From the IMG/VR virus record IMGVR_UViG_3300021961_007320, positions 1 to 23,513 of that record: a stretch of 23,513 nt of DNA. One strand, written 5' to 3'. The notes under the pieces are model-generated. The model saw only the letters and a program-made list of their open reading frames with translations. It was not told where the DNA came from and ran no database searches. This document shows positions 368 to 22,917 of the stretch, in pieces (the first letter of the stretch is position 1; each line of letters starts with the position of its first letter). Both the position numbers and the translations under genes were made by a program. Origin of the DNA: a virus.

Positions 368-616
368 ATGCTAACAGTGTACTCTAAGAATAACTGTCCA
401 TATTGTGATAAAGCGAAGCATTTACTGACTACAAAAGACATTGAATTTAAAGTAGTAAATATAGATATAGACCCTGAGGCAAGGGAATGGTTAATCAGTG
501 AAGGGCATCGATCAGCACCTCAAATATATAAAGATGGTAAATTATTTGTAGAAGGTGGTTATCAAGGCTTGGTTAGATTAACCGATGAAGAATTAACAGA
601 GAAATTAGGAGTTTAA
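368..616 (+). CDS. Glutaredoxin with CPYC active site
   Basis: An 82-residue protein of normal glutaredoxin size. It has the CPYC redox motif at residues 10-13 after the first beta strand, a cis-proline segment (SAPQIY) near residue 50 and a GGYQGL glutathione-binding-like turn near residue 63. It probably reduces the phage ribonucleotide reductase, whose nrdB gene ends just upstream. An AAGGA ribosome-binding site lies 9 bases before the ATG. The stop is followed after two bases by a second thioredoxin-fold gene, so the two are surely co-transcribed. Function is secure at family level; the exact substrate is inferred from context. Confidence 0.93.
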   Translation: MLTVYSKNNCPYCDKAKHLLTTKDIEFKVVNIDIDPEAREWLISEGHRSAPQIYKDGKLFVEGGYQGLVRLTDEELTEKLGV

Positions 617-618
617 GT

Positions 619-891
619 ATGGCAAAATTAACAGTATATTCAGACAAAGGAATTAGATCGTCATTGGCCAAAACAAGATTAACACAATTAGGTGTTGATT
701 TTGATGTGGTGGATTGTGAGGCTGATGTTAGTGGAGTTTCATTCATTGAATCCAAGGGAAGAGATAGAGACCATTATCCATTACCTCAATTTTATGTAGG
801 TGAATCTGTTGCTTGGGAAGGATTCAAGCAAATGAAGGATCTAAATGCTTCTGAAATTAATGAAAGGGTGGATGAACTTAATGCTGGTTAA
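619..891 (+). CDS. Glutaredoxin-like protein lacking active-site cysteines
   Basis: A 90-residue protein that begins like the glutaredoxin before it (KLTVYSDKG against MLTVYSKNN) and keeps the cis-proline strand (LPQFYVGE) and a WEGF turn near the end, so a thioredoxin/glutaredoxin fold is likely. Where its neighbour has CPYC, this protein reads IRSS, and its only cysteine (in VVDCEA) is elsewhere. It should therefore lack dithiol redox chemistry and may bind a partner or glutathione. It looks like a diverged tandem duplicate. The start is the ATG two bases after the previous stop, with GGAG of the previous gene's end as a probable ribosome-binding site. Confidence 0.75.
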   Translation: MAKLTVYSDKGIRSSLAKTRLTQLGVDFDVVDCEADVSGVSFIESKGRDRDHYPLPQFYVGESVAWEGFKQMKDLNASEINERVDELNAG

Positions 892-4188: not shown

Positions 4189-5189
4189 TGAATTTAGTAT
4201 ACTGGAATAACTATTATTTTACCAGAGACTTTCAAAGATATTTTGAAACCAAATATTGGCCAGACACACAAGACTTAACTGAATATGTTAATTCTAGCAG
4301 TGATTATAAGATAGCCATTTTAGGTTATCCTATAAGTTCAGAAAGTCTTGACCAACTGCTTACCTGCTCAGAACGGGTGTTCATAATCCTAATAGAGTTA
4401 CATGATAATCATGCGGCATTTATCAAACAACATAATCATGAAAAAATCACTTGGGTGTTACCTGGAGTAATATATGGCATCGACAATTATGTGTTCAACA
4501 GTGAATGGTTGTTTGAGCATGTCAGATTATACAGCAAACCCATAATTAAACGAGATCTTCGAGAACTTACTCCATACGAAACAAAACCCTATTACTTTGA
4601 TTCATTGTTTAAGACCTACAATCCACATAAGATATTTGTACACCAACAGATAACCAGTAAACATCTCACTGATAAAATTCTAATGCGTTCCTGGCAGGAA
4701 GATTTTATATTTCCCAATGAATTAACAGAAGGACATGAAGCCAGCCTAACTACTTATAAAGGAAGACATTGTTTAGTTGCCAGTATAGTTCCGATCAACA
4801 TCTATAACCAAACAGCCTATAGCATAATAACCGAAACACAATGGAATAATTCACATTTCTTTTTAACGGAAAAGATCACAAAATGCTTACTGGCCAAACG
4901 ATTATTTGTGGTGTTCAGCGGAGTCCATTGGCTTAGATCCTTTCGATCATTGGGATTTAAAACATTTGATAATATCATTGATGAGAGTTATGACTCAATT
5001 GAAGATCCCCATCTTAGATGGCAACGAGCATTTGAGCAAGTTGAATATCTGCTCGGACAAGATCAAGAAAAAATATTAGCAAGTGCTAGGGAAGTATTAG
5101 AACACAATCTAGAACATCTATGGACAACTAACTGGCAGTTCATTAGGGATCAGGCAATGCTTGATCAGATCGATTTCAATCTCTCATAG
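4188..5189 (+). CDS. Putative glycosyltransferase-like protein
   Basis: A 333-residue cytoplasmic protein. About residues 215-275 contain SIITETQW, FFLTEKITKCLLAKRLFVVFSG and a LRSLGFKTFDNIIDESYD segment. An ETxx..FxTEKxxK..xA..PFxVx block with a following LGxxTF is typical of GT10/exostosin-like C-terminal domains seen in marine phages and bacteria, where the Glu-Lys pair contacts the sugar-nucleotide donor. The N-terminal half (ILGYPISSE, EHVRLYSKP) could form the acceptor domain. It may modify phage DNA, virion or host surface sugars; the substrate is unknown. It starts within the previous stop, and its last 25 bases overlap tail-to-tail with the minus-strand lipoprotein gene. Confidence 0.5.
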   Translation: MNLVYWNNYYFTRDFQRYFETKYWPDTQDLTEYVNSSSDYKIAILGYPISSESLDQLLTCSERVFIILIELHDNHAAFIKQHNHEKITWVLPGVIYGIDNYVFNSEWLFEHVRLYSKPIIKRDLRELTPYETKPYYFDSLFKTYNPHKIFVHQQITSKHLTDKILMRSWQEDFIFPNELTEGHEASLTTYKGRHCLVASIVPINIYNQTAYSIITETQWNNSHFFLTEKITKCLLAKRLFVVFSGVHWLRSFRSLGFKTFDNIIDESYDSIEDPHLRWQRAFEQVEYLLGQDQEKILASAREVLEHNLEHLWTTNWQFIRDQAMLDQIDFNLS

Positions 5190-5734
5190 TAATCAATCAA
5201 CGCCTGGGTGGTTTTAGGTCCAATCGTGCCCGTTTGTTCAATGCCGTGTTCTTTCTGAAAAGCAAACACTTCTGTGTCATTCTTTGGAAATTTGTTATAT
5301 AAGTCATCGTTCCAGATCTTTAACCCGTGTTGGTAATTCCAATATGCCTGCCTGGTCAACGGACCCATGTTACCATTCACAGGACGTATATCTTCGATAA
5401 TTTGAAATACTTTGACTTTGTTTTTTGTGTTAAGCACGGGCAACACTATCTCAACGGGCTCACAGTAATCGCCCTCGCCCTTGATCTTGCGGAACAACCT
5501 ACAGTCCTTGCCTGTTAGATAACTGACCACATGATCAGTCAAGGTCTTGCCAGTCTGTTGCACGCTGGCGACATCACCCGCTGTCTTGGCCACGTCCAAT
5601 GCCTGTGCCACTTCCAATGTTGATGTTGTCGCGGCCGCACCGGCACCCGTGGTTCCGGCACCCGTCATGGTCACCAACAGCGTGCAACCTTGTAATGTTA
5701 AGATACCAATTATCAAGAAAGATTTCATATTCAT
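5165..5734 (-). CDS. Lipoprotein with C-terminal peptidoglycan-binding domain
   Basis: A 189-residue protein with a lipoprotein signal: Lys4, a hydrophobic core and lipobox LQGC with Cys17 as lipidated residue. An Ala/Thr/Gly-rich spacer follows, then DCRLFRKIKGEGDYCE near residues 77-92, a pattern I recall from proteobacterial lipoproteins. The C-terminus carries two peptidoglycan-binding-like repeats, NGNMGPLTRQAYWNYQ (about 120-135) and the clearer VFAFQKEHGIEQTGTIGPKT (about 156-175). It should sit in the envelope bound to the wall. Possible roles are superinfection exclusion, lysis or stabilising the curli-like pore; none is shown. It is the last gene of the minus-strand operon. Confidence 0.82.
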   Translation of the reverse strand: MNMKSFLIIGILTLQGCTLLVTMTGAGTTGAGAAATTSTLEVAQALDVAKTAGDVASVQQTGKTLTDHVVSYLTGKDCRLFRKIKGEGDYCEPVEIVLPVLNTKNKVKVFQIIEDIRPVNGNMGPLTRQAYWNYQHGLKIWNDDLYNKFPKNDTEVFAFQKEHGIEQTGTIGPKTTQALIDYYERLKSI

Positions 5735-5736
5735 GT

Positions 5737-5988
5737 TTAACCCCAGGACAGCAAGAATGCTGTGACCAATTCTTTTGTGGGTATGCTTAGTACCATGCCC
5801 TCGTGGTGCATGCGGCCCTTAGGCAAGTTTTGCTCCATCCACTTGTATATATCTCGTTCATTCTGTATCCACCAGGCAAAGTCTGATATTATCAAATAAT
5901 GACTTGTGGGGTTACCCGGAAATTCAAATTCTCCACCAAGTATAAACCTTTTTCCTTGATTTTCTTTTTGATCAAATACGTTTGTCAT
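5737..5988 (-). CDS. Small conserved phage protein, C-terminal aromatic motif
   Basis: An 83-residue protein with a central helix (WWIQNERDIYKWMEQN), a PKGRMHHEGMVLSI strand and a C-terminal TKELVTAFLLSWG. The ending, an acidic turn, then aromatic-xx-Leu-x-aromatic, recurs in four other small proteins of this operon, so the set may share a small alpha/beta fold. It overlaps the upstream gene by 4 bases (ATGA) and is followed closely by the lipoprotein gene. The function is unknown. Confidence 0.68.
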   Translation of the reverse strand: MTNVFDQKENQGKRFILGGEFEFPGNPTSHYLIISDFAWWIQNERDIYKWMEQNLPKGRMHHEGMVLSIPTKELVTAFLLSWG

Positions 5989-6215
5989 TCTGGTAATACC
6001 AATCTAAACCAGAGAGCATCTTTTGGATCCTCGAATCTAAAGGCAAAATCAAAATGCGTTCCCTTGCCGTGTAGATGGTAATTTCCGCCAGGCTGACTGT
6101 TAAGATTTTCTATTATCTTGTTGATATCTCGAGATTCTTTTTCAAAAATCCAAGTCCATCTGACAACAACTTCTTTCCACCTTTTTGGTGGCGGCCACAT
6201 CTCAATTTTGGTCAT
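5985..6215 (-). CDS. Small conserved phage protein, C-terminal aromatic motif
   Basis: A 76-residue protein with Trp-rich N-terminal strands (MWPPPKRW, VVRWTWIF), a helix (RDINKIIENL) and a C-terminal FDFAFRFEDPKDALWFRLVL. The last segment matches the family pattern hydrophobic-x-F-x-(D/N)-(P/E)-K-D-x4-F-x-L of this operon. It overlaps the phosphoesterase gene upstream and the next small gene downstream by 4 bases each, so translation is probably coupled throughout. The function is unknown. Confidence 0.68.
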   Translation of the reverse strand: MTKIEMWPPPKRWKEVVVRWTWIFEKESRDINKIIENLNSQPGGNYHLHGKGTHFDFAFRFEDPKDALWFRLVLPE

Positions 6216-7018
6216 AGGTCTATATACTGTAGTTTAAAATTATCAGCACCTGCTTCGTGACCACTATAGCCACGTGGATTACACACGATCCTAGTAGTAC
6301 CGATATCATAGTCAAAGGGTTCATGCGTGTGACCGTGAGTCCATAGACGAATCTGTGGACGATAAGCGATAAAGTCATCTAGATCACTGGCAAAAGCACC
6401 ATTCATGATCTTATCGTTGGCATACTTAGGATGTATGCTCTTCATGCTAGGGCAATGATGTCCAACGACTACGAACTTATAGTTTGGACGATCGTAGGTG
6501 ATATGATTGATATAGTCCAAGCTACGCTTATGGAACGCAACTGTGTCCTCAGGAGTTAAGCGTGCTGGCTTACCCCATTCATTTAAGGTCCTGGCACTGT
6601 TCTTGATGACATGGAAATCGTTCATCATTGATGTCACATGATACAGGGTCAGGCCGTCTTCTGAATTCATGTCAGTCCATAAAGTAGCGCCAATGAAAAC
6701 AACACCGTTGATGTCAACAGTTTCATTTTCCAGGATATGTAGATTATCATGTGCAAGTTCACGTTTTAATCGTTCAGCGGTATGTTGTATGTCGTGGTCA
6801 TAATGTTCATGATTACCTAACACATAAATGACGTGGGGGAAACGTTCACAACACTGTTGGAAAAAGGTCCTATAACGTTGATTGTGGCGATGTTCATTAT
6901 TGAGGTTTTTGGCCACGCAGATGTCACCAGACAATAGCAAAACGTCTGCATTTTCTGTGTTGTCTAATTCAATCGCACCAAATTCTAGATGTAAGTCACT
7001 ACCCAATGCTATTTTCAT
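6212..7018 (-). CDS. Calcineurin-like metallophosphoesterase
   Basis: A 268-residue protein with all signature blocks of the calcineurin-like phosphoesterase family: SDLHLEF (Asp8, His10), LLSGDI (Asp32), LGNHEHYD (Asn69, His70), VVGHHCPS (His187) and THGHTHEP (His228, His230). These residues bind two metal ions. The length is normal for a single-domain enzyme, and no signal or membrane segment is present, so it acts in the cytoplasm. The substrate could be a nucleotide, nucleic acid or phosphoprotein. It lies in the middle of a minus-strand operon of tiny proteins with 4-base overlaps on both sides. The family is certain, the substrate unknown. Confidence 0.93.
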   Translation of the reverse strand: MKIALGSDLHLEFGAIELDNTENADVLLLSGDICVAKNLNNEHRHNQRYRTFFQQCCERFPHVIYVLGNHEHYDHDIQHTAERLKRELAHDNLHILENETVDINGVVFIGATLWTDMNSEDGLTLYHVTSMMNDFHVIKNSARTLNEWGKPARLTPEDTVAFHKRSLDYINHITYDRPNYKFVVVGHHCPSMKSIHPKYANDKIMNGAFASDLDDFIAYRPQIRLWTHGHTHEPFDYDIGTTRIVCNPRGYSGHEAGADNFKLQYIDL

Positions 7019-7245
7019 TTAAATCTCATTAGAAAAAACATATAATCTTTTTCATTCCTAAAAATAAAACAAGGTCCGCCAAATTGTGTTTCTCTTTCCC
7101 AATATTCACAATGAAACACATCTCTTAACCAATTTATAAATTCATTATACCAATATGTGACATCACAGTTATTTTGAATTTCAAATTCTTTAACACTGTT
7201 GTGCCAGAAGTCTGCGTTGGTTATTAAAGGTATTTCATATATCAT
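7015..7245 (-). CDS. Small conserved phage protein, C-terminal aromatic motif
   Basis: A 76-residue aromatic-rich protein with a helix (WYNEFINWLRDVF), a strand segment and a C-terminal CFIFRNEKDYMFFLMRFK, the best example of the shared ending (strand, N/D-E-K, then F-x-L-R-aromatic). It has ATGA-type overlaps with both neighbours. No catalytic motif is visible. The function is unknown. Confidence 0.68.
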   Translation of the reverse strand: MIYEIPLITNADFWHNSVKEFEIQNNCDVTYWYNEFINWLRDVFHCEYWERETQFGGPCFIFRNEKDYMFFLMRFK

Positions 7246-7538
7246 CGATTAGATGCCGAATATTTAAGTTGGAACAGCAGATATTTCTTTTCATCAACAA
7301 CTTCAAATTGACCAGTGATACCTTCTTCCGTGGCGATCATCTTAATTCCATAAGTGTTTAGTACCCATTCATAAAAAGGTCCTGAATTGGTAAAGGCAAC
7401 ATAGTGAGGTTTAGGATCTCGAACTTTTAACATTTCTATATACTCTTCTCTACATCGATATATCTTAAAAAGATAATCGTCATCACCTATAATAGTGTCT
7501 AGTCTACGCAGTTGTGAATTGTATAGTTTTTTAGTCAC
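7242..7538 (-). CDS. Small conserved phage protein, C-terminal aromatic motif
   Basis: A 98-residue protein. After a basic N-terminus comes a strand/helix part (DDYLFKIYRCREEYIEML), a GPFYEWVLNTYGIKMI helix and a C-terminal FEVVDEKKYLLFQLKY that fits the operon's shared ending. It overlaps the downstream gene by 4 bases and the upstream gene by 8. The function is unknown. Confidence 0.68.
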   Translation of the reverse strand: MTKKLYNSQLRRLDTIIGDDDYLFKIYRCREEYIEMLKVRDPKPHYVAFTNSGPFYEWVLNTYGIKMIATEEGITGQFEVVDEKKYLLFQLKYSASNR

Positions 7539-7809
7539 TTGGAAAATCTTTACCGTATTTTAAGTAATAAAAAGTAATAAATCTATTCAGCTCATGTAGG
7601 TTAGTCCAATGCCAAGTGTCATAACTTGTACGTCTTACCCCTGGACGATCTTTAACTTCTTCAACAATTTGATTGATTATATTATCAAAAATACCAACCA
7701 TCAGAGGATTTTCCCAAATCTGTGCTTTGGCTCCGGTTGCTGACGTGGGGATCTGCATCACCCAAGCGTTACGTTTTTTGGTCACCTTAAACATACTATA
7801 TTTTAGCAT
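7531..7809 (-). CDS. First gene of minus-strand operon, small phage protein
   Basis: Up to 92 residues, with a strand (WVMQIP), a long helix (NIINQIVEEVKDR) and a C-terminal LHELNRFITFYYLKYG that fits the shared ending of the four small proteins downstream. The start is uncertain. The ATG at 7809 overlaps a predicted -10 box (7800-7805), so transcripts from that promoter would begin near the second ATG (7794), giving MFKVTKK and a nearly leaderless message. No ribosome-binding site precedes either ATG. It overlaps the next gene by 8 bases. The function is unknown. Confidence 0.66.
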   Translation of the reverse strand: MLKYSMFKVTKKRNAWVMQIPTSATGAKAQIWENPLMVGIFDNIINQIVEEVKDRPGVRRTSYDTWHWTNLHELNRFITFYYLKYGKDFPSD

Positions 7810-7829
7810 ATATTTTTGGTGTTTGTCAA
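7800..7829 (-). promoter_or_regulatory. sigma70-type promoter for minus-strand operon
   Basis: On the minus strand a perfect TTGACA (plus 7824-7829) is followed after 18 bases by TAAAAT (plus 7800-7805), preceded by TG at the extended -10 position. It drives the operon from 7809 to 5165. Transcription would start around 7792-7794, which coincides with the second ATG of the first gene. Confidence 0.65.
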
Positions 7830-12630: not shown

Positions 12631-12867
12631 ATGGCATACGAACCACCGATAATAAAAGGATCAATTGTTTATGTTAAAAATGACAATGTAGAACAAGCTC
12701 TACGTAAGTTTAAGAAAAACATACAAAACATTGGACTTTTAAATGACCTACGTGCCAAGGAATTCTACGAAAAACCGACCAGTGTAAGAAAGCGTAAAAA
12801 ATCAGCCGCCAAAGCACGTTGGCGCAAGAAACTACAAAGCCAACAACTTCCTCCAAAAAAATATTAA
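12631..12867 (+). CDS. rpsU: Phage-encoded ribosomal protein bS21
   Basis: A 78-residue basic protein that aligns with bacterial bS21 along its length: VYVKNDNVEQALRKFKKN matches the N-terminal helix, REFYEKPT-like AKEFYEKPTSVRKRKKSAAK the central signature, and a Lys/Arg-rich C-terminal helix follows. It has about 8 residues more than E. coli S21 because of an N-terminal extension. In the ribosome, S21 lies near the anti-Shine-Dalgarno end of 16S rRNA and affects initiation, so a phage copy could exchange into host ribosomes and favour phage messages. S21 genes are known in pelagiphages and other marine phages. It has its own promoter and a GGAG site 5 bases from the ATG. Its stop overlaps the convergent radical SAM gene by 4 bases. 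Confidence 0.92.
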   Translation: MAYEPPIIKGSIVYVKNDNVEQALRKFKKNIQNIGLLNDLRAKEFYEKPTSVRKRKKSAAKARWRKKLQSQQLPPKKY

Positions 12868-15598: not shown

Positions 15599-15630
15599 TT
15601 TAGATCTTGCTTAATAAAGGAGAAACTAAC

Positions 15631-17568
15631 ATGTCTAAGATCATCGGTATCGACCTTGGCACCACAAATAGTTGTGTGGCCATTCTTGAAAATAACAAAC
15701 CAAAAGTAATTGAAAACTCTGAAGGTGCTCGTACTACACCTAGTATTGTTTCCTATGGTGATGAAATCCTAGTTGGTGCAAGTGCTAAACGACAAGCAGT
15801 CACTAACCCAAAGAAAACAATCTATGCGGCCAAACGTTTAATTGGACGTAAGTTTAAAGAAAAAGAAGTACAAAAGGATATTGACCTAATGCCCTACACC
15901 ATCGTGGAGAACACCAATGGTGACGCATGGGTTAAAATTGATGACAAAGATCTAGCACCCCCACAAATTTCAGCAGAAGTCCTAAAGAAAATGAAAAAAA
16001 CTGCTGAAGACTATCTTGGTGCAGAAGTAACACAAGCAGTTATCACTGTACCTGCTTACTTCAATGATGCACAACGCCAGGCAACCAAGGATGCAGGTAA
16101 GATTGCCGGCTTAGAAGTTCTACGTATCATCAATGAACCAACTGCGGCCGCCTTGGCTTATGGTGTTGACAAAGGTGATAAGAAAGATAAGAAAGTTGCT
16201 GTGTATGACCTAGGTGGTGGTACATTTGATGTGTCAATTATTGAGATAGCCAACATTGATGGCGAACAACAATTTGAGGTATTGGCCACGAACGGTGACA
16301 CATTCTTGGGCGGTGAGGACTTCGACCAACGCATCATGGATTACATCATTGATGAGTTTACTAAAGAAAGCGGCGTTGATCTAAGTAAAGATGTGTTAGC
16401 TCTACAGCGTTTGAAAGAAGCCGCAGAAAAAGCAAAGATTGAATTGTCAAGCAACAGCCAAACAGATGTTAACTTGCCATACATCACTGCTGATGCTAGT
16501 GGACCTAAGCACTTGAATGTAAAAATCACTCGTGCCAAATTTGAAAGCCTAGTAGAAGATCTAATTGCTCGTTCAATTGAACCTTGCAAGGTAGCACTTA
16601 AAGATGCTGGTGTGAATACCAACGACATCAACGAGGTCATCCTAGTTGGTGGACAGACACGCATGCCCAAGGTACAAGCAGAAGTTGAAAAACTATTTGG
16701 CAAAGCACCACGCAAAGATGTCAACCCAGACGAAGCAGTGGCAGTTGGTGCGGCCATCCAAGGTGCTGTGTTAGCCGGTGACAAGACTGACGTTCTATTA
16801 TTGGACGTTAGTCCATTGAGCTTAGGTATTGAAACAGTTGGTGGAGTGTTTACAAAACTGATTAAGAAAAACACAACAATTCCAACCAAGGCAAGTCAGG
16901 TATTTTCAACTGCGGACGACAATCAACCAGCAGTGACCATCGCTGTGTTCCAAGGCGAGCGTGAGTTCGTCAAGGACAACAAGAAACTGGGTGAATTCAA
17001 TCTAGAAGGTATTGATCCACAACCACGTGGCATGCCAGCGATTGAAGTGACACTTGATGTTGATGCCAATGGTATTTTAAAAGTAAGTGCCAAAGACAAA
17101 AACACAGGTAAAGAAAACAAGATCACCATTAAAGCCAACTCAGGTCTGAGTGAAGAAGAAATTGAAAAAATGGTCAGAGATGCAGAAGCCAATGCAGAGG
17201 CAGATAAGAAAATGAAAGCATTAGTTGAAAATAAAAATTCAGCTGATATGCAACTTCATGGCATTAAGAAAGCCTTAGAGGAACACGGCAGTAAGATCAC
17301 TGACACAGAAAAAACCAAGATCGAAGAAGCAATTAAAAATCTTGAAGAAGCAGTCAAAACCAATGATCCAGAGGATGCAGGCAAAGTTTTAGATGCCATC
17401 ACGGCACTAAATGAACCTTGCATGCCATTATGGAATGCCAAACAAGCGTCAGAATCAGCTTCAACAGTTGAACCTGGTGCTTCAACCAATTCAGAAAAGG
17501 CAGATGATGTAGTAGATGCTGACTTTACTGAAGTTAAAGATGATGCCGATAAAGGGTCATCAAAATAA
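15631..17568 (+). CDS. dnaK: Hsp70 chaperone DnaK, full length
   Basis: A 645-residue protein, within a few residues of E. coli DnaK length. The nucleotide-binding domain has [35 protein letters not shown] and VGGQTRMP. The substrate-binding domain and the helical lid follow, and the C-terminal [11 protein letters not shown] tail is kept. All key motifs are intact, so it should be an active ATP-driven chaperone; DnaJ and GrpE partners are not in the window and may come from the host. The ATG at 15631 is chosen because it follows AAGGAG by 8 bases and gives the conserved [10 protein letters not shown] start; an upstream in-frame TTG is not needed. The sequence looks gamma/betaproteobacterial. 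A complete DnaK is unusual cargo for a phage. Confidence 0.97.
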
Positions 17569-17594
17569 TCTTGCTTAAATTAAGGAGAAAACAA

Positions 17595-18038
17595 ATGAAA
17601 CAAGTATATTTAAATTCGTTGGATATTCCAACTATCAGTAGATTTGCCGTGGGGTTTGATCGTATGTTTGACGAACTAACTCGCACAGCTAGTACTCTAA
17701 ACGGTACTAATTACCCACCATATAATATTATCAAAAGTGGTGAAAACACCTACGTCATTGAAGTAGCGGTTTCTGGCTTTGAAGAGTCGGAACTAGACGT
17801 AGAAGTCAAGGACGGCGAATTGATTGTTAAAGGTGAAAAGCAATTTAAAGAAGAAGAAGCACCAGAATACCTACATCAAGGTATTGCTAATCGCAACTTC
17901 TTAAGAACTTTTGCTCTGGCAGAAAATGTAGAAGTTAAAGGCGCCAGTGTAAAAAATGGCATCCTAGCAGTGACTCTTGAACACATTGTTCCTGAATCAG
18001 CTAAGCCGAAAAAGATTGCTATTACTTTTGAAAAATAG
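17595..18038 (+). CDS. Small heat-shock protein, IbpA family (Hsp20)
   Basis: A 147-residue protein matching IbpA along its length: FAVGFDRMFDEL near the N-terminus, YPPYNIIKSGENTYVIEVAVSGF at the start of the alpha-crystallin domain, YLHQGIANRNFLRTF in the middle and a C-terminal VPESAKPKKIAI with the I/V-x-I-type motif. It holds unfolding proteins for DnaK. Hsp20 genes are common in cyanophages. The ATG at 17595 has AAGGAG 7 bases upstream; an upstream TTG is rejected. The leader resembles the dnaK leader base for base, and dnaK ends 26 bases upstream, so the two form one unit. Confidence 0.94.
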   Translation: MKQVYLNSLDIPTISRFAVGFDRMFDELTRTASTLNGTNYPPYNIIKSGENTYVIEVAVSGFEESELDVEVKDGELIVKGEKQFKEEEAPEYLHQGIANRNFLRTFALAENVEVKGASVKNGILAVTLEHIVPESAKPKKIAITFEK

Positions 18039-18044
18039 TATAAT
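18016..18044 (+). promoter_or_regulatory. sigma70-type promoter before clpS
   Basis: TTGCTA (18016-18021), 17 bases, perfect TATAAT (18039-18044), overlapping the end of the Hsp20 gene. Transcripts would begin near 18051, just before a 10-bp hairpin. Confidence 0.5.
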
Positions 18045-18054
18045 TAATAGTATA

Positions 18055-18077
18055 GGGGTGACAGAATCTGTTACCCC
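18055..18077 (+). other. Hairpin between hsp20 and clpS
   Basis: GGGGTGACAG pairs with CTGTTACCCC (one G-U pair) around loop AAT. There is no U-run after it, so it is a weak terminator candidate. It would lie at the very 5' end of transcripts from the promoter just upstream and could stabilise the clpS message. Confidence 0.55.
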
Positions 18078-18103
18078 GTTACTAAGATAAAAACTGAATT
18101 TCA

Positions 18104-18439
18104 ATGTCATTAATAACAGAAAAGGAATTAATAGTGGGAAAAGAAGTCACTAAAATAAAATCAAGCCCCAATCTTGGACTTAAAGAACCCCCATTGTTCC
18201 ATGTCATCTATTTCAATGATGATGTTACCACAGTTGACTTTGTTATCCTGACACTTGTTGATTTCTTTTTTCACACAGATGAAACAGCCAAAGAGCTGAC
18301 ATTGAAAATTCATGAAGAAGGTCAGGCTATTGTGGCAACATTACCATATGAAATTGCCGAACAGCGTGGCGTTGAAGTCACACACTTGGCCAGAACTGAA
18401 GGATTTCCATTGTCGATCAAATTAGAACCAGCGGAATGA
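18104..18439 (+). CDS. clpS: ClpS-like N-degron adaptor
   Basis: A 111-residue protein with the ClpS core: FNDD (Asn38, Asp39, Asp40, the alpha-amino-group-binding residues), VDFVILTLVDFFF helix, KIHEEG (His70, equivalent to the conserved ligand-binding His) and EVTHLARTEGFPL at the ClpA-facing side. ClpS delivers proteins with N-terminal destabilising residues to ClpAP, so the phage copy could redirect host proteolysis. ATG 18104 has no clear ribosome-binding site; GTG 18134, in frame, has AAGGA at good spacing and would give 101 residues. The last bases overlap the next gene as ATGA. Confidence 0.88.
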   Translation: MSLITEKELIVGKEVTKIKSSPNLGLKEPPLFHVIYFNDDVTTVDFVILTLVDFFFHTDETAKELTLKIHEEGQAIVATLPYEIAEQRGVEVTHLARTEGFPLSIKLEPAE

Positions 18440-20266: not shown

Positions 20267-21052
20267 ATGCGTAACCTAATAGTTATATTATTTTTGGTCG
20301 CAATGACAGGTTGTGCCACGCATCAAGGTATGAAGGGTGAGTACGAACCTGCTATGGTTGTGCGTGAGAACTTGGAAAAAGATTTTGATGTCATACCACC
20401 ACCTGCCAAGGGCAAGGTCAGCGTGGCCGTCTACAAGTTCAGTGACCTGACAGGACAGAGACGTCCTGCTCCTCCTGGCACTACTAGTTTTAGCACTGCT
20501 GTGACACAGGGAGCAGACGCATTACTAATCAAGTCACTACAGGATGTAGGCAGAGGTGAATGGTTTGAAGTAGTAGAGCGTGTGGGCTTAGACAACTTAT
20601 TAAAAGAAAGGCAGATCATCAAACAGATGCGTGAAGCCTATGAAAAAGATGCCAAACCTTTGATGCCAATGCAGTTCGCAGGAATGATTTTTGAGGGTGG
20701 CATCGTTGGCTATGACTCAGCAACCAAGGAAGGTGGTGCCGCATATAGAATGTTGGGTATTGGTCCACAGACACAATACAGTGAAGATATTATTACAGTT
20801 AACCTCAGAGCAATATCAGTTAACACTGGTAAAGTATTAGCCGCGGTTAACATTAAAAAGACAGTGTATTCAACAGCAGACAGCCTTGCCATACTAAAGT
20901 TTTATGACCAAGGCACACAGGTATTTGAATTTGAAGCAGGTTTAACACTCAACGAACCTGCTACAATGGCAGTAAAGGCCGCTATAGATTCAGCGGTGGT
21001 TGAGTTAATTAAGGAAGGTGAACGCAAAGGCGTTTGGAATTTTAAGGAGTAA
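20267..21052 (+). CDS. csgG: CsgG-like curli secretion channel lipoprotein
   Basis: A 261-residue protein with a lipoprotein signal (Cys16 after MTG; the -3 Met is slightly atypical). It follows CsgG from start to end: GKVSVAVYKFSDLTGQ, FSTAVTQGADALLIKSL, RVGLDNLLKERQIIKQ, AGMIFEGGIVGYDSATKEGG, YSEDIITVNLRAISVNTGKVLA and NEPATMAVKAAIDSAV. CsgG forms a nine-fold outer-membrane pore. The constriction loop between GQ and FSTAV has ten residues here against eight in E. coli; the Phe56 equivalent (Phe75) is kept, while Tyr51 and Asn55 are not. The long C-terminal tail of E. coli CsgG is shorter. Function as a pore is well supported; the cargo is inferred. Confidence 0.96.
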   Translation: MRNLIVILFLVAMTGCATHQGMKGEYEPAMVVRENLEKDFDVIPPPAKGKVSVAVYKFSDLTGQRRPAPPGTTSFSTAVTQGADALLIKSLQDVGRGEWFEVVERVGLDNLLKERQIIKQMREAYEKDAKPLMPMQFAGMIFEGGIVGYDSATKEGGAAYRMLGIGPQTQYSEDIITVNLRAISVNTGKVLAAVNIKKTVYSTADSLAILKFYDQGTQVFEFEAGLTLNEPATMAVKAAIDSAVVELIKEGERKGVWNFKE

Positions 21053-21059
21053 TTAATAT

Positions 21060-21836
21060 ATGAAAAAATTAACTAGATTGATAATGGCCATGTTAATGGC
21101 AACCAGTCTAGTGTATGCCGCTGATAACTCAATTTATATTGATCAAGCAGGTGATAACTCAACAATAAGCATAACACAAGACGGTAGTGGCAACGAAGTA
21201 TATGATGTGGGCTCAGGTGCTACGTCAACAACGGCCGCAACCTTGACAGGTGACAGCCAGACCTTAGACATACGTCAGATTGGCGCTGGTAATAAATTAA
21301 AACTAGGCATCAACTCAACGGTGCTATCAGGTGTTGGTGTGAACTTGACCTACTATATGACAGGTTCAAACTCAGTGGCCACGCTTGACTTCAATGATGA
21401 TGGTGCAGGCACACTGGCCAACTTGGTATTTGATGTACGCCAGACAGGTTCATACAATGACTTGTTCGCTGACATCCTAGGTTCAAACAACACAGTGACA
21501 GCCACAGCCACAGGCGGTAGTTATAATGACTTTAACTTTACAATTAATGCAGATGATGTCACAGTAAATGCCGCGATCAGTGGAGGTGGTGGTAATACAT
21601 TAACCACAAACCTAACCAGTGATTCAGGATCAGTTGATGTCACGGCAGTGGGTGCATCAAACACATTCAGCATCACACAGAGTGGTGTGGGTGGAACCAA
21701 TGGACATGGAATCACATTAGATGTCACAGGTTCAAGTAACTCATTTACAACTTCACAGAGTGGCGCAATTGACACGACTATCGACATTACATCAGTGGGT
21801 TCAAATAACACTTGGTCTATTACTACTTCAGACTAG
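21060..21836 (+). CDS. Curlin-repeat (CsgA/B-like) secreted amyloid-type protein
   Basis: A 258-residue protein with a signal peptide (MKKLTRLIMAMLMATSLVYA, cleaved before ADN). The mature part has about a dozen repeats with alternating hydrophobic residues ending in a Q-x-G-x-x-N-like turn, for example IYIDQAGDN, ISITQDGSGN, LDIRQIGAGN, FDVRQTGSYN and FSITQSGVGG. The first repeats closely resemble CsgA (ITQHGGGN). No cysteines are present. A stacked beta-solenoid able to form fibres is expected. It is the probable substrate of the CsgG/CsgF pore encoded just upstream. AAGGAG lies 10 bases before the ATG. It is longer than E. coli CsgA (about 150 residues), with later repeats more degenerate. 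Confidence 0.88.
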   Translation: MKKLTRLIMAMLMATSLVYAADNSIYIDQAGDNSTISITQDGSGNEVYDVGSGATSTTAATLTGDSQTLDIRQIGAGNKLKLGINSTVLSGVGVNLTYYMTGSNSVATLDFNDDGAGTLANLVFDVRQTGSYNDLFADILGSNNTVTATATGGSYNDFNFTINADDVTVNAAISGGGGNTLTTNLTSDSGSVDVTAVGASNTFSITQSGVGGTNGHGITLDVTGSSNSFTTSQSGAIDTTIDITSVGSNNTWSITTSD

Positions 21837-22917
21837 TCTATTGCTCCTACCCCTTCCTGCACAGGCGGCTGTTGGCACTATAACGAGCCAACAGCACGAT
21901 CCTGCCAGTATTGAAAGAAAAAAAGAAAAACTGGAAGGCAAGAAAGGCACTGGCATAGAGATGAACGATCTCTTGAAGACTGGTGAGGGCAAGTTGGGCA
22001 TCACTTTCGTTGATGATACCAAACTACAGATGACAGAGAACTCCAAAGTGCTGGTTGATGAGTTCGTCTATGATCCCAATCAGAAAGATGCCGGTAAGTT
22101 AGCCATTAAGGTAGCATCAGGCACTGCTCGTTATGCGTCAGGACAGATCGCTAAAAACGATCCCTCAAAGGTTAAGATCGCCACGCCAACAGCCACAGTT
22201 GCGGTACGTGGTACAGATTTCACAGCCACAGTAGATGAACTAGGTGGTAGCACCATCATACTGTTGCCCTCATGTCCTGTAGGTTATAAAAGGATAGAAG
22301 AATGCACGGTGGGAGTGATTGACGTCACCACTGGTGCTGGCACTGTGACATTGACTGAAGCGTTCTCAGCCACAGTGGCAAATTTTTATGAGAAACCACC
22401 AACACCACCAGTTAGGTTAGATCTGACAGAAAGCCAGATATCTAACTTATTAATCTTGTCAAGGCCCAAAGAACTTAGAGAGCAAGAAAAGGAAACAGAT
22501 CAGATTAAAAATGTCCTAGATGTCAATGCTCTCGATGTCAATAATTTGAACAATGACTTAGAAGAACAGCAGAAGAACATGTATAGTGATGCTCTGTCAG
22601 AGAATCTATTAGACAGAGATTTCCTTAAGAACGTCCTAGACCTAATCAATCTACAGTTAATCAAAGCCTCTGAGAGACAGTTAGCCGTCAAGGCGGGAGA
22701 TGAACTACTACCAGACTATGATCCAGCTGGACCAGTCCGTGCAACAGTGGACGGAGTGGCTGTGAGATTGTGTATGGAAACAGGACCCAGTGATGTGAGT
22801 TGCGTAAGGACACCTACAACGCAAAATAGCACCATCATACAGAGTCAAGGATCAGTTGAGATTACAAACCGTGTCAATGACTCAGGCACGACTACAATTA
22901 CGACGATACAGCGATGA
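21721..22917 (+). CDS. Secreted FecR-domain protein, start uncertain
   Basis: Up to 398 residues. The FecR domain occupies about residues 80-185: GTGIEMNDLLKTGEGKLGITFVDDTKLQM-type start (shown in pieces), KVASGTARYASGQIAK, then IATPTATVAVRGTDF. The C-terminal 200 residues are helical then Ser/Thr-rich. A signal peptide core (LGLLLLQTSLLLLPLPAQA) ends at residue 49. The hydrophobic core is encoded from about 21811, before the curlin stop at 21836, so the genes overlap in different frames. Candidate starts are ATG 21721, GTG 21760 and TTG 21769, none with a good ribosome-binding site. It should be periplasmic or secreted, perhaps an assembly or surface factor for the curli-like fibre. The stop overlaps the next ATG. 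Confidence 0.8.
   Translation: MSQVQVTHLQLHRVAQLTRLSTLHQWVQITLGLLLLQTSLLLLPLPAQAAVGTITSQQHDPASIERKKEKLEGKKGTGIEMNDLLKTGEGKLGITFVDDTKLQMTENSKVLVDEFVYDPNQKDAGKLAIKVASGTARYASGQIAKNDPSKVKIATPTATVAVRGTDFTATVDELGGSTIILLPSCPVGYKRIEECTVGVIDVTTGAGTVTLTEAFSATVANFYEKPPTPPVRLDLTESQISNLLILSRPKELREQEKETDQIKNVLDVNALDVNNLNNDLEEQQKNMYSDALSENLLDRDFLKNVLDLINLQLIKASERQLAVKAGDELLPDYDPAGPVRATVDGVAVRLCMETGPSDVSCVRTPTTQNSTIIQSQGSVEITNRVNDSGTTTITTIQR

Follow-up and report, generated by a model that had tools for sequence, protein, structure and literature searches.

A tightly packed operon of small genes

The window analysed here is a 23.5-kb viral contig (23,513 nt) from virus record IMGVR_UViG_3300021961_007320. 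On its minus strand lie five small ORFs, named P0001 to P0005, which are transcribed from 7809 toward 5737. P0005 (7531–7809, 92 aa; tail ...FYYLKYGKDFPSD) is the first gene of the operon. It is followed by P0004 (7242–7538, 98 aa), which starts with GTG, belongs to a DEKKYLLF subfamily and carries the tail FQLKYSASNR, and by P0003 (7015–7245, 76 aa; tail FLMRFK). A metallophosphoesterase gene (6212–7018, minus strand; phrog_1649 with an E-value of 9e-56 and Metallophos with 6e-8), which is not a member of the family described below, separates P0003 from P0002 (5985–6215, 76 aa; tail FRLVLPE). P0001 (5737–5988, 83 aa; tail FLLSWG) comes next, and the last gene of the operon encodes a lipoprotein with a C-terminal peptidoglycan-binding motif (5165–5734, minus strand; PG_binding_1, E-value 4e-6). 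ATGA overlaps are found at four junctions, i.e., P0004/P0003, P0003/phosphoesterase, phosphoesterase/P0002, and P0002/P0001, and we therefore regard these genes as one tightly packed operon. The first-pass annotation had described five tiny operon proteins of 76–98 residues that share a C-terminal ending. The five ORFs exist with the quoted endings, in one operon and with lengths in that range (83, 76, 76, 98, and 92 aa), but the interrupting metallophosphoesterase gene had gone unmentioned.

A promoter-like site, TTGACA-18-TAAAAT with a TG before the −10, is located at 7800–7829 (minus strand) and agrees with the consensus at 11 of 12 positions, which is a consensus match only. Since there is overlap between its −10 and the first ATG of P0005, this gene may really start at the ATG at 7794. 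If used, this start would leave P0005 on a nearly leaderless mRNA (7794–7829, minus strand).

Four of the small proteins belong to a previously unlabelled family

An aromatic-x-L-x-aromatic/Leu motif lies at most 7 residues from the end in four of the five window proteins, and the same terminal motif occurs in 28 of 864 long ORFs (3.2%) of the same loci. In P0005, the motif (FYYLKYG) sits 6 residues further in from the end, and the terminal motif claimed for all five proteins thus holds for four. A profile HMM made from 43 seed proteins of other phages, with no window sequence but with seeds picked by their ending and hence not wholly blind, placed P0001–P0005 as hits 1–5 among the 129 window ORFs scored. 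E-values were 1.4e-9 for P0004, 3.1e-9 for P0003, 4.9e-9 for P0002, 0.0096 for P0001, and 0.15 for P0005. The profile match also spans about 45 residues upstream of the ending, namely a helix of the form ..eI..Wl..n.g, then W, and then F-x-F. Since a profile derived from other phages alone ranks the five ORFs at the top of the window, the sequences indicate that the resemblance of the endings is due to homology and not to chance.

By these profile scores, P0002, P0003, and P0004 are clear family members. P0001 is assigned to the family through its orthologs: its own E-value reached 2.2e-4 after iteration, the orthologs match at 1e-12, and their profile-profile comparison with the family gave 97.5% (E-value 7e-12). 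An ortholog in record L172 is 60% identical to P0001. Orthologs of P0002 are present in L003, L004, L038, and L128. P0005 has relatives in L034 and L082, the latter reading RDAEKFITLYNLKWAE at its end, but the profile-profile probability of a relationship with the family is only 3%; P0005 is possibly a distant member and may be unrelated. The proposed expanded paralogous family is therefore strongly supported for P0001–P0004 and reaches far beyond five proteins, while the place of P0005 in it stays doubtful.

Single-protein searches with P0001–P0005 against 50,697 phage records returned no believable relative. Similarly, back-translated peptides of P0002, P0003, and P0005 found no relative in viral contigs, and only P0004, with 17 relatives in these contigs, opened the family. 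The P0004 relatives are surrounded by series of small ORFs that share this ending, with nine in succession in L006. Searches of Pfam, PHROG, NCBIfam, PADLOC, and PDB sequences gave no useful match naming any member. The PADLOC library, which holds defence and not counter-defence proteins, produced two stray weak matches among 127 members.

Predicted fold of the family domain

AlphaFold models based on family alignments were obtained for P0003 (pLDDT 79.6, pTM 0.63) and P0002 (pLDDT 77.2, pTM 0.61). The P0003 model consists of a strand (13–17), two helices (18–25 and 29–43), two strands (49–54 and 57–62), and a closing helix (65–75). The P0002 model has the same element order, so that strand-helix-helix-strand-strand-helix is the predicted order common to both; the models are of medium confidence, their alignments are shared to a large extent, and the fold was modelled for these two proteins only. 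Structural comparison of the window proteins, as suggested by the first-pass annotation, thus revealed no unrelated folds for this pair. The shared ending, which had been read as a strand, an acidic turn, and FxL(R/K)aromatic, corresponds in the models to the last strand, an acidic turn, and the closing helix, so that the first-pass description was right in part.

The only nearly invariant columns of the family are W, F, F, L, and W. The models predict that each gene encodes one domain, roughly 80 residues long, with an aromatic core formed by the W of the main helix, the F of the last strand, and the F-x-L-x-W of the last helix, and with no invariant polar residue. These conserved positions make up a hydrophobic core and include no catalytic set. 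Among solved structures, neither P0003 nor P0002 has a significant structural neighbour. The best structural matches in a viral library are uncharacterised proteins of uncultured Caudovirales phages (E-value 0.023, probability 0.95).

Family genes form arrays in large phages

The array set was gathered in part with a DNA pattern modelled on canonical 3' ends; this pattern requires TGGNNATGA and is found in at least 120 stretches in viral contigs. Iterated HMM searches of the ORFs of 137 loci yielded 766 members at E ≤ 1e-4 with a median length of 82 aa. Array members all lie on one strand, head to tail, with up to 18 per fragment. Whole records of 158–525 kb contain 5 to 28 matches each, and contigs of 333–364 kb contain 28 (in a 364-kb contig), 17, and 15, showing that copy number differs widely from phage to phage. 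Sequence divergence between copies is deep and the reading frames are intact. All 360 usable ortholog pairs have a dN/dS below 1, with a median of 0.12, which indicates that the family genes are under strong purifying selection.

Some neighbours of the arrays recur. The lipoprotein gene of the window is also present in L004 and L172, whose arrays are syntenic, and a metallophosphoesterase of the same type adjoins family genes in L004, L017, L171, L172, L173, and Pseudomonas phage PA5oct (gp236). A functional link between the phosphoesterase and the family genes is possible; no family members were found in the phosphoesterase-bearing isolates B23, S-CREM2, CM1, and Pam2. The L172 phosphoesterase is 83% identical to that of the window, whereas the neighbouring family genes are largely different, the only recognisable ones being matches to P0001 (60%) and P0004 (30%). 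This comparison indicates that array members are replaced fast around stable neighbours. Genes often found near arrays include those for a 3'-5' exonuclease (37 loci) and for a fragment of a DNA polymerase (16 loci), as well as phrog_11058 (48 loci) and phrog_11758 (40 loci), for example in L138 (3595–4317, minus strand) and L067 (3972–4565, minus strand).

Genes of the phrog_11058 type are present in jumbo phages of several hosts, and the occurrence of phrog_11058 and phrog_11758 near arrays pointed us to isolates for profile searches. Sinorhizobium phage Phosso (469 kb) has 47 places at E ≤ 0.05, ranging from weak to strong, and 17 members lie within the 13-kb stretch examined. Pseudomonas phages PA5oct and Paride have three places each, those of PA5oct being gp237, gp210, and gp209. 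Agrobacterium phage Atu_ph07 has eight weaker places, where a weak tblastn match was confirmed by the profile. The profile found nothing in eight other jumbo phages, which together serve as a negative control: 121Q, phage G, XacN1, BcepSauron, Munch, SCTP-2, Vibrio 2.275, and Erwinia SNUABM_47. BcepSauron had surfaced in the structural search and was discarded for lack of a profile match. Within the stretches covered, all family genes of the isolates are annotated as "hypothetical protein."

The 3' end of canonical members doubles as a putative ribosome-binding site

The terminal codons of canonical members read TTG-AGG-TGG-NNA-TGA, which places a GAGG Shine-Dalgarno sequence 5 nt before the overlapping ATG of the next gene. 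In raw counts, where relatives are not down-weighted for kinship, 72% of RW-ending members use AGG for the terminal Arg, versus 8% of internal Arg codons in family genes, and the Leu before it is TTG or CTG in 77% versus 30%. Counted in the same unweighted way, AGG is used by 242 of 311 RW-ending members when the next start overlaps (199/259 plus 43/52) and by 27 of 65 without an overlapping next start (11/30 plus 16/35). The DNA pattern used for collecting arrays enriched TGGNNATGA ends but not the AGG codon, because several codons fit its MRN position. A GAGG stands before 49% of the ATGA starts in the family and before 8% of those in the background, and the excess of ATGA persists in members outside the DNA pattern (365/679 versus 159/831 in the background). 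Moreover, dS is 0.22 in the last nine codons and 0.64 in the gene body, i.e., reduced to one third. At the level of sequence signals, codon choice and dS thus indicate a double reading of the 3' end in canonical relatives, once as the last helix of the protein and once as the ribosome-binding site of the next gene.

At the window junctions, the ATGA overlaps are kept but GAGG is absent, and the embedded site appears to be largely lost from these genes. In Phosso, an embedded Shine-Dalgarno sequence is not clearly seen. The dual-use end therefore describes the canonical lineage and does not define the family.

Seemingly longer overlaps of 10 nt (ATGGNNATGA) were also considered as true gene overlaps. 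We rejected these in favour of the second ATG, a better start that overlaps TGA by 4 nt and has GAGG 5 nt before it. Taking the first ATG instead creates long N-terminal leaders, for example MVYIEVVM, which are therefore artefacts.

Discussion

We consider it probable that the window holds a diverged, short stretch of a large jumbo-phage family, in which genes form arrays, the 3' end has a dual role, and the products are binder domains. As each gene would carry the start signal for whatever follows it, a tandem duplicate could be translated without further change, and such translation-ready duplicates would favour array growth. The conserved end would also give unequal exchange a short stretch of common sequence to act on. 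The domains themselves may act as non-enzymatic binders with a conserved core and variable surfaces that engage differing host targets; many diverged copies per phage would fit many targets, which most plausibly lie in the host. A function as host-takeover or counter-defence factors, which the first-pass annotation had offered as speculation, is plausible and the likeliest of the functions considered, though we stop just short of calling it probable. More tentatively, the arrays could be self-propagating cassettes of a modular binding domain, in which the tail codons serve at the same time as closing helix, next ribosome-binding site, and recombination sequence. Copies would then be added, lost, or swapped and translated at once, so that every phage would possess a distinct set of dozens of factors aimed at the host; we regard this extended version as possible but doubtful.

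Most genes of jumbo phages are unnamed, and here one previously unlabelled domain covers dozens of such genes in a single phage, as the 47 places in Phosso show. The family recurs in jumbo phages from the environment as well as in PA5oct and Paride, two P. aeruginosa phages grown in the laboratory, which makes its function directly testable. The dual-use 3' end, in turn, offers a concrete and testable reason for array growth. In T4- and SPO1-type phages, the tiny host-takeover genes, whose targets are unknown, lie densely packed in clusters and are drawn from mixed families. The present arrays, which we liken to these clusters by description only, differ in that one family fills the array.

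Tandem arrays as such are already known. Hua et al. (2017; PMC5646251) reported such arrays, with over 30 similar genes in tandem, for phages G and 121Q, and these arrays are also cited in a 2026 review (PMC13282480). They resemble ours in consisting of many paralogs placed head to tail, in occurring in very large phages, and in being read as the outcome of tandem duplication, and their genes are not further described in the passages of that paper covered here. In contrast to them, the copies studied here are deeply diverged and the 3' end of the canonical lineage forms the ribosome-binding site of the next gene; in addition, our family profile matches neither genome at E ≤ 0.05. We found no reference to paralog arrays in papers on AP-J-162 and Atu_ph07, two related phages, and the family appears to be undescribed in the open-access literature.

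Among other explanations, the one that fares best is that the family consists of small nucleic-acid-binding proteins, KH-like or winged-helix-like, that regulate phage or host RNA or DNA, for instance at the level of translation or decay. The predicted element order is that of the minimal KH motif, and KH type I domains (FUBP1 KH2, vigilin KH8, and PCBP1 KH1) share it with both models. They are the nearest structures to P0002 (E-value 0.14, TM 0.41), and ArsR-type winged helices are nearest to P0003 (E-value 0.43, TM 0.47); exonuclease and polymerase-fragment genes near the arrays would also suit such a role. However, none of these matches is significant, with E-values of 0.14 or worse and a TM of about 0.41 for KH type I and the above values as the best for ArsR-type regulators, and the two models point to differing folds. 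P0002 and P0003, like the family consensus, lack the GXXG loop that KH domains have between the first two helices. Furthermore, no basic residue is conserved except for the terminal R/K, whose codon choice is linked to the ribosome-binding site. We therefore judge nucleic-acid binding to be rather unlikely.

It is still less likely that tandem duplication produced the arrays chiefly as a by-product, filling a head-full genome with little function per copy, in line with the size ratchet of Hua et al. (2017; PMC5646251). The wide variation in copy number among phages is what such filling would produce, but a dN/dS of 0.12, with 360 of 360 usable pairs below 1, the deep divergence between copies, and the intact frames all speak against it.

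Minor virion or assembly proteins are very improbable: jumbo phages do carry many small virion proteins, but copy number and divergence are ill-suited to a structural part, and in the PA5oct record, in which some proteins carry an ESI-MS/MS note, gp237, gp210, and gp209 have none. Finally, chance, or convergence driven by nothing but the overlapping ribosome-binding site, can practically be dismissed as the source of the shared ending. The overlap is linked to the final R and to some of the codon choice at L and W, but conservation extends about 45 residues upstream to the helix W and the strand F-x-F, and window genes without the embedded site still match the profile.

Other genes of the window

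Ribosomal protein S21, which sits near the anti-Shine-Dalgarno sequence on the ribosome, is phage-encoded in the window (12631–12867, plus strand; E-value 5e-16). A similar S21 ORF is found in the array-carrying L017 record (493–738, plus strand). A link between S21 and embedded ribosome-binding sites would be worth a test.

Genes for DnaK-like, HSP20, and ClpS proteins lie in a row at 15607–18439 (plus strand); DnaK was recognised by reading the sequence, and HSP20 and ClpS by library match. The phage contig also carries a curli-like cluster (20267–21052, 21060–21836, and 21838–22917, all on the plus strand), which comprises CsgG (E-value 4e-48), a protein with curlin repeats, and another with a FecR domain.
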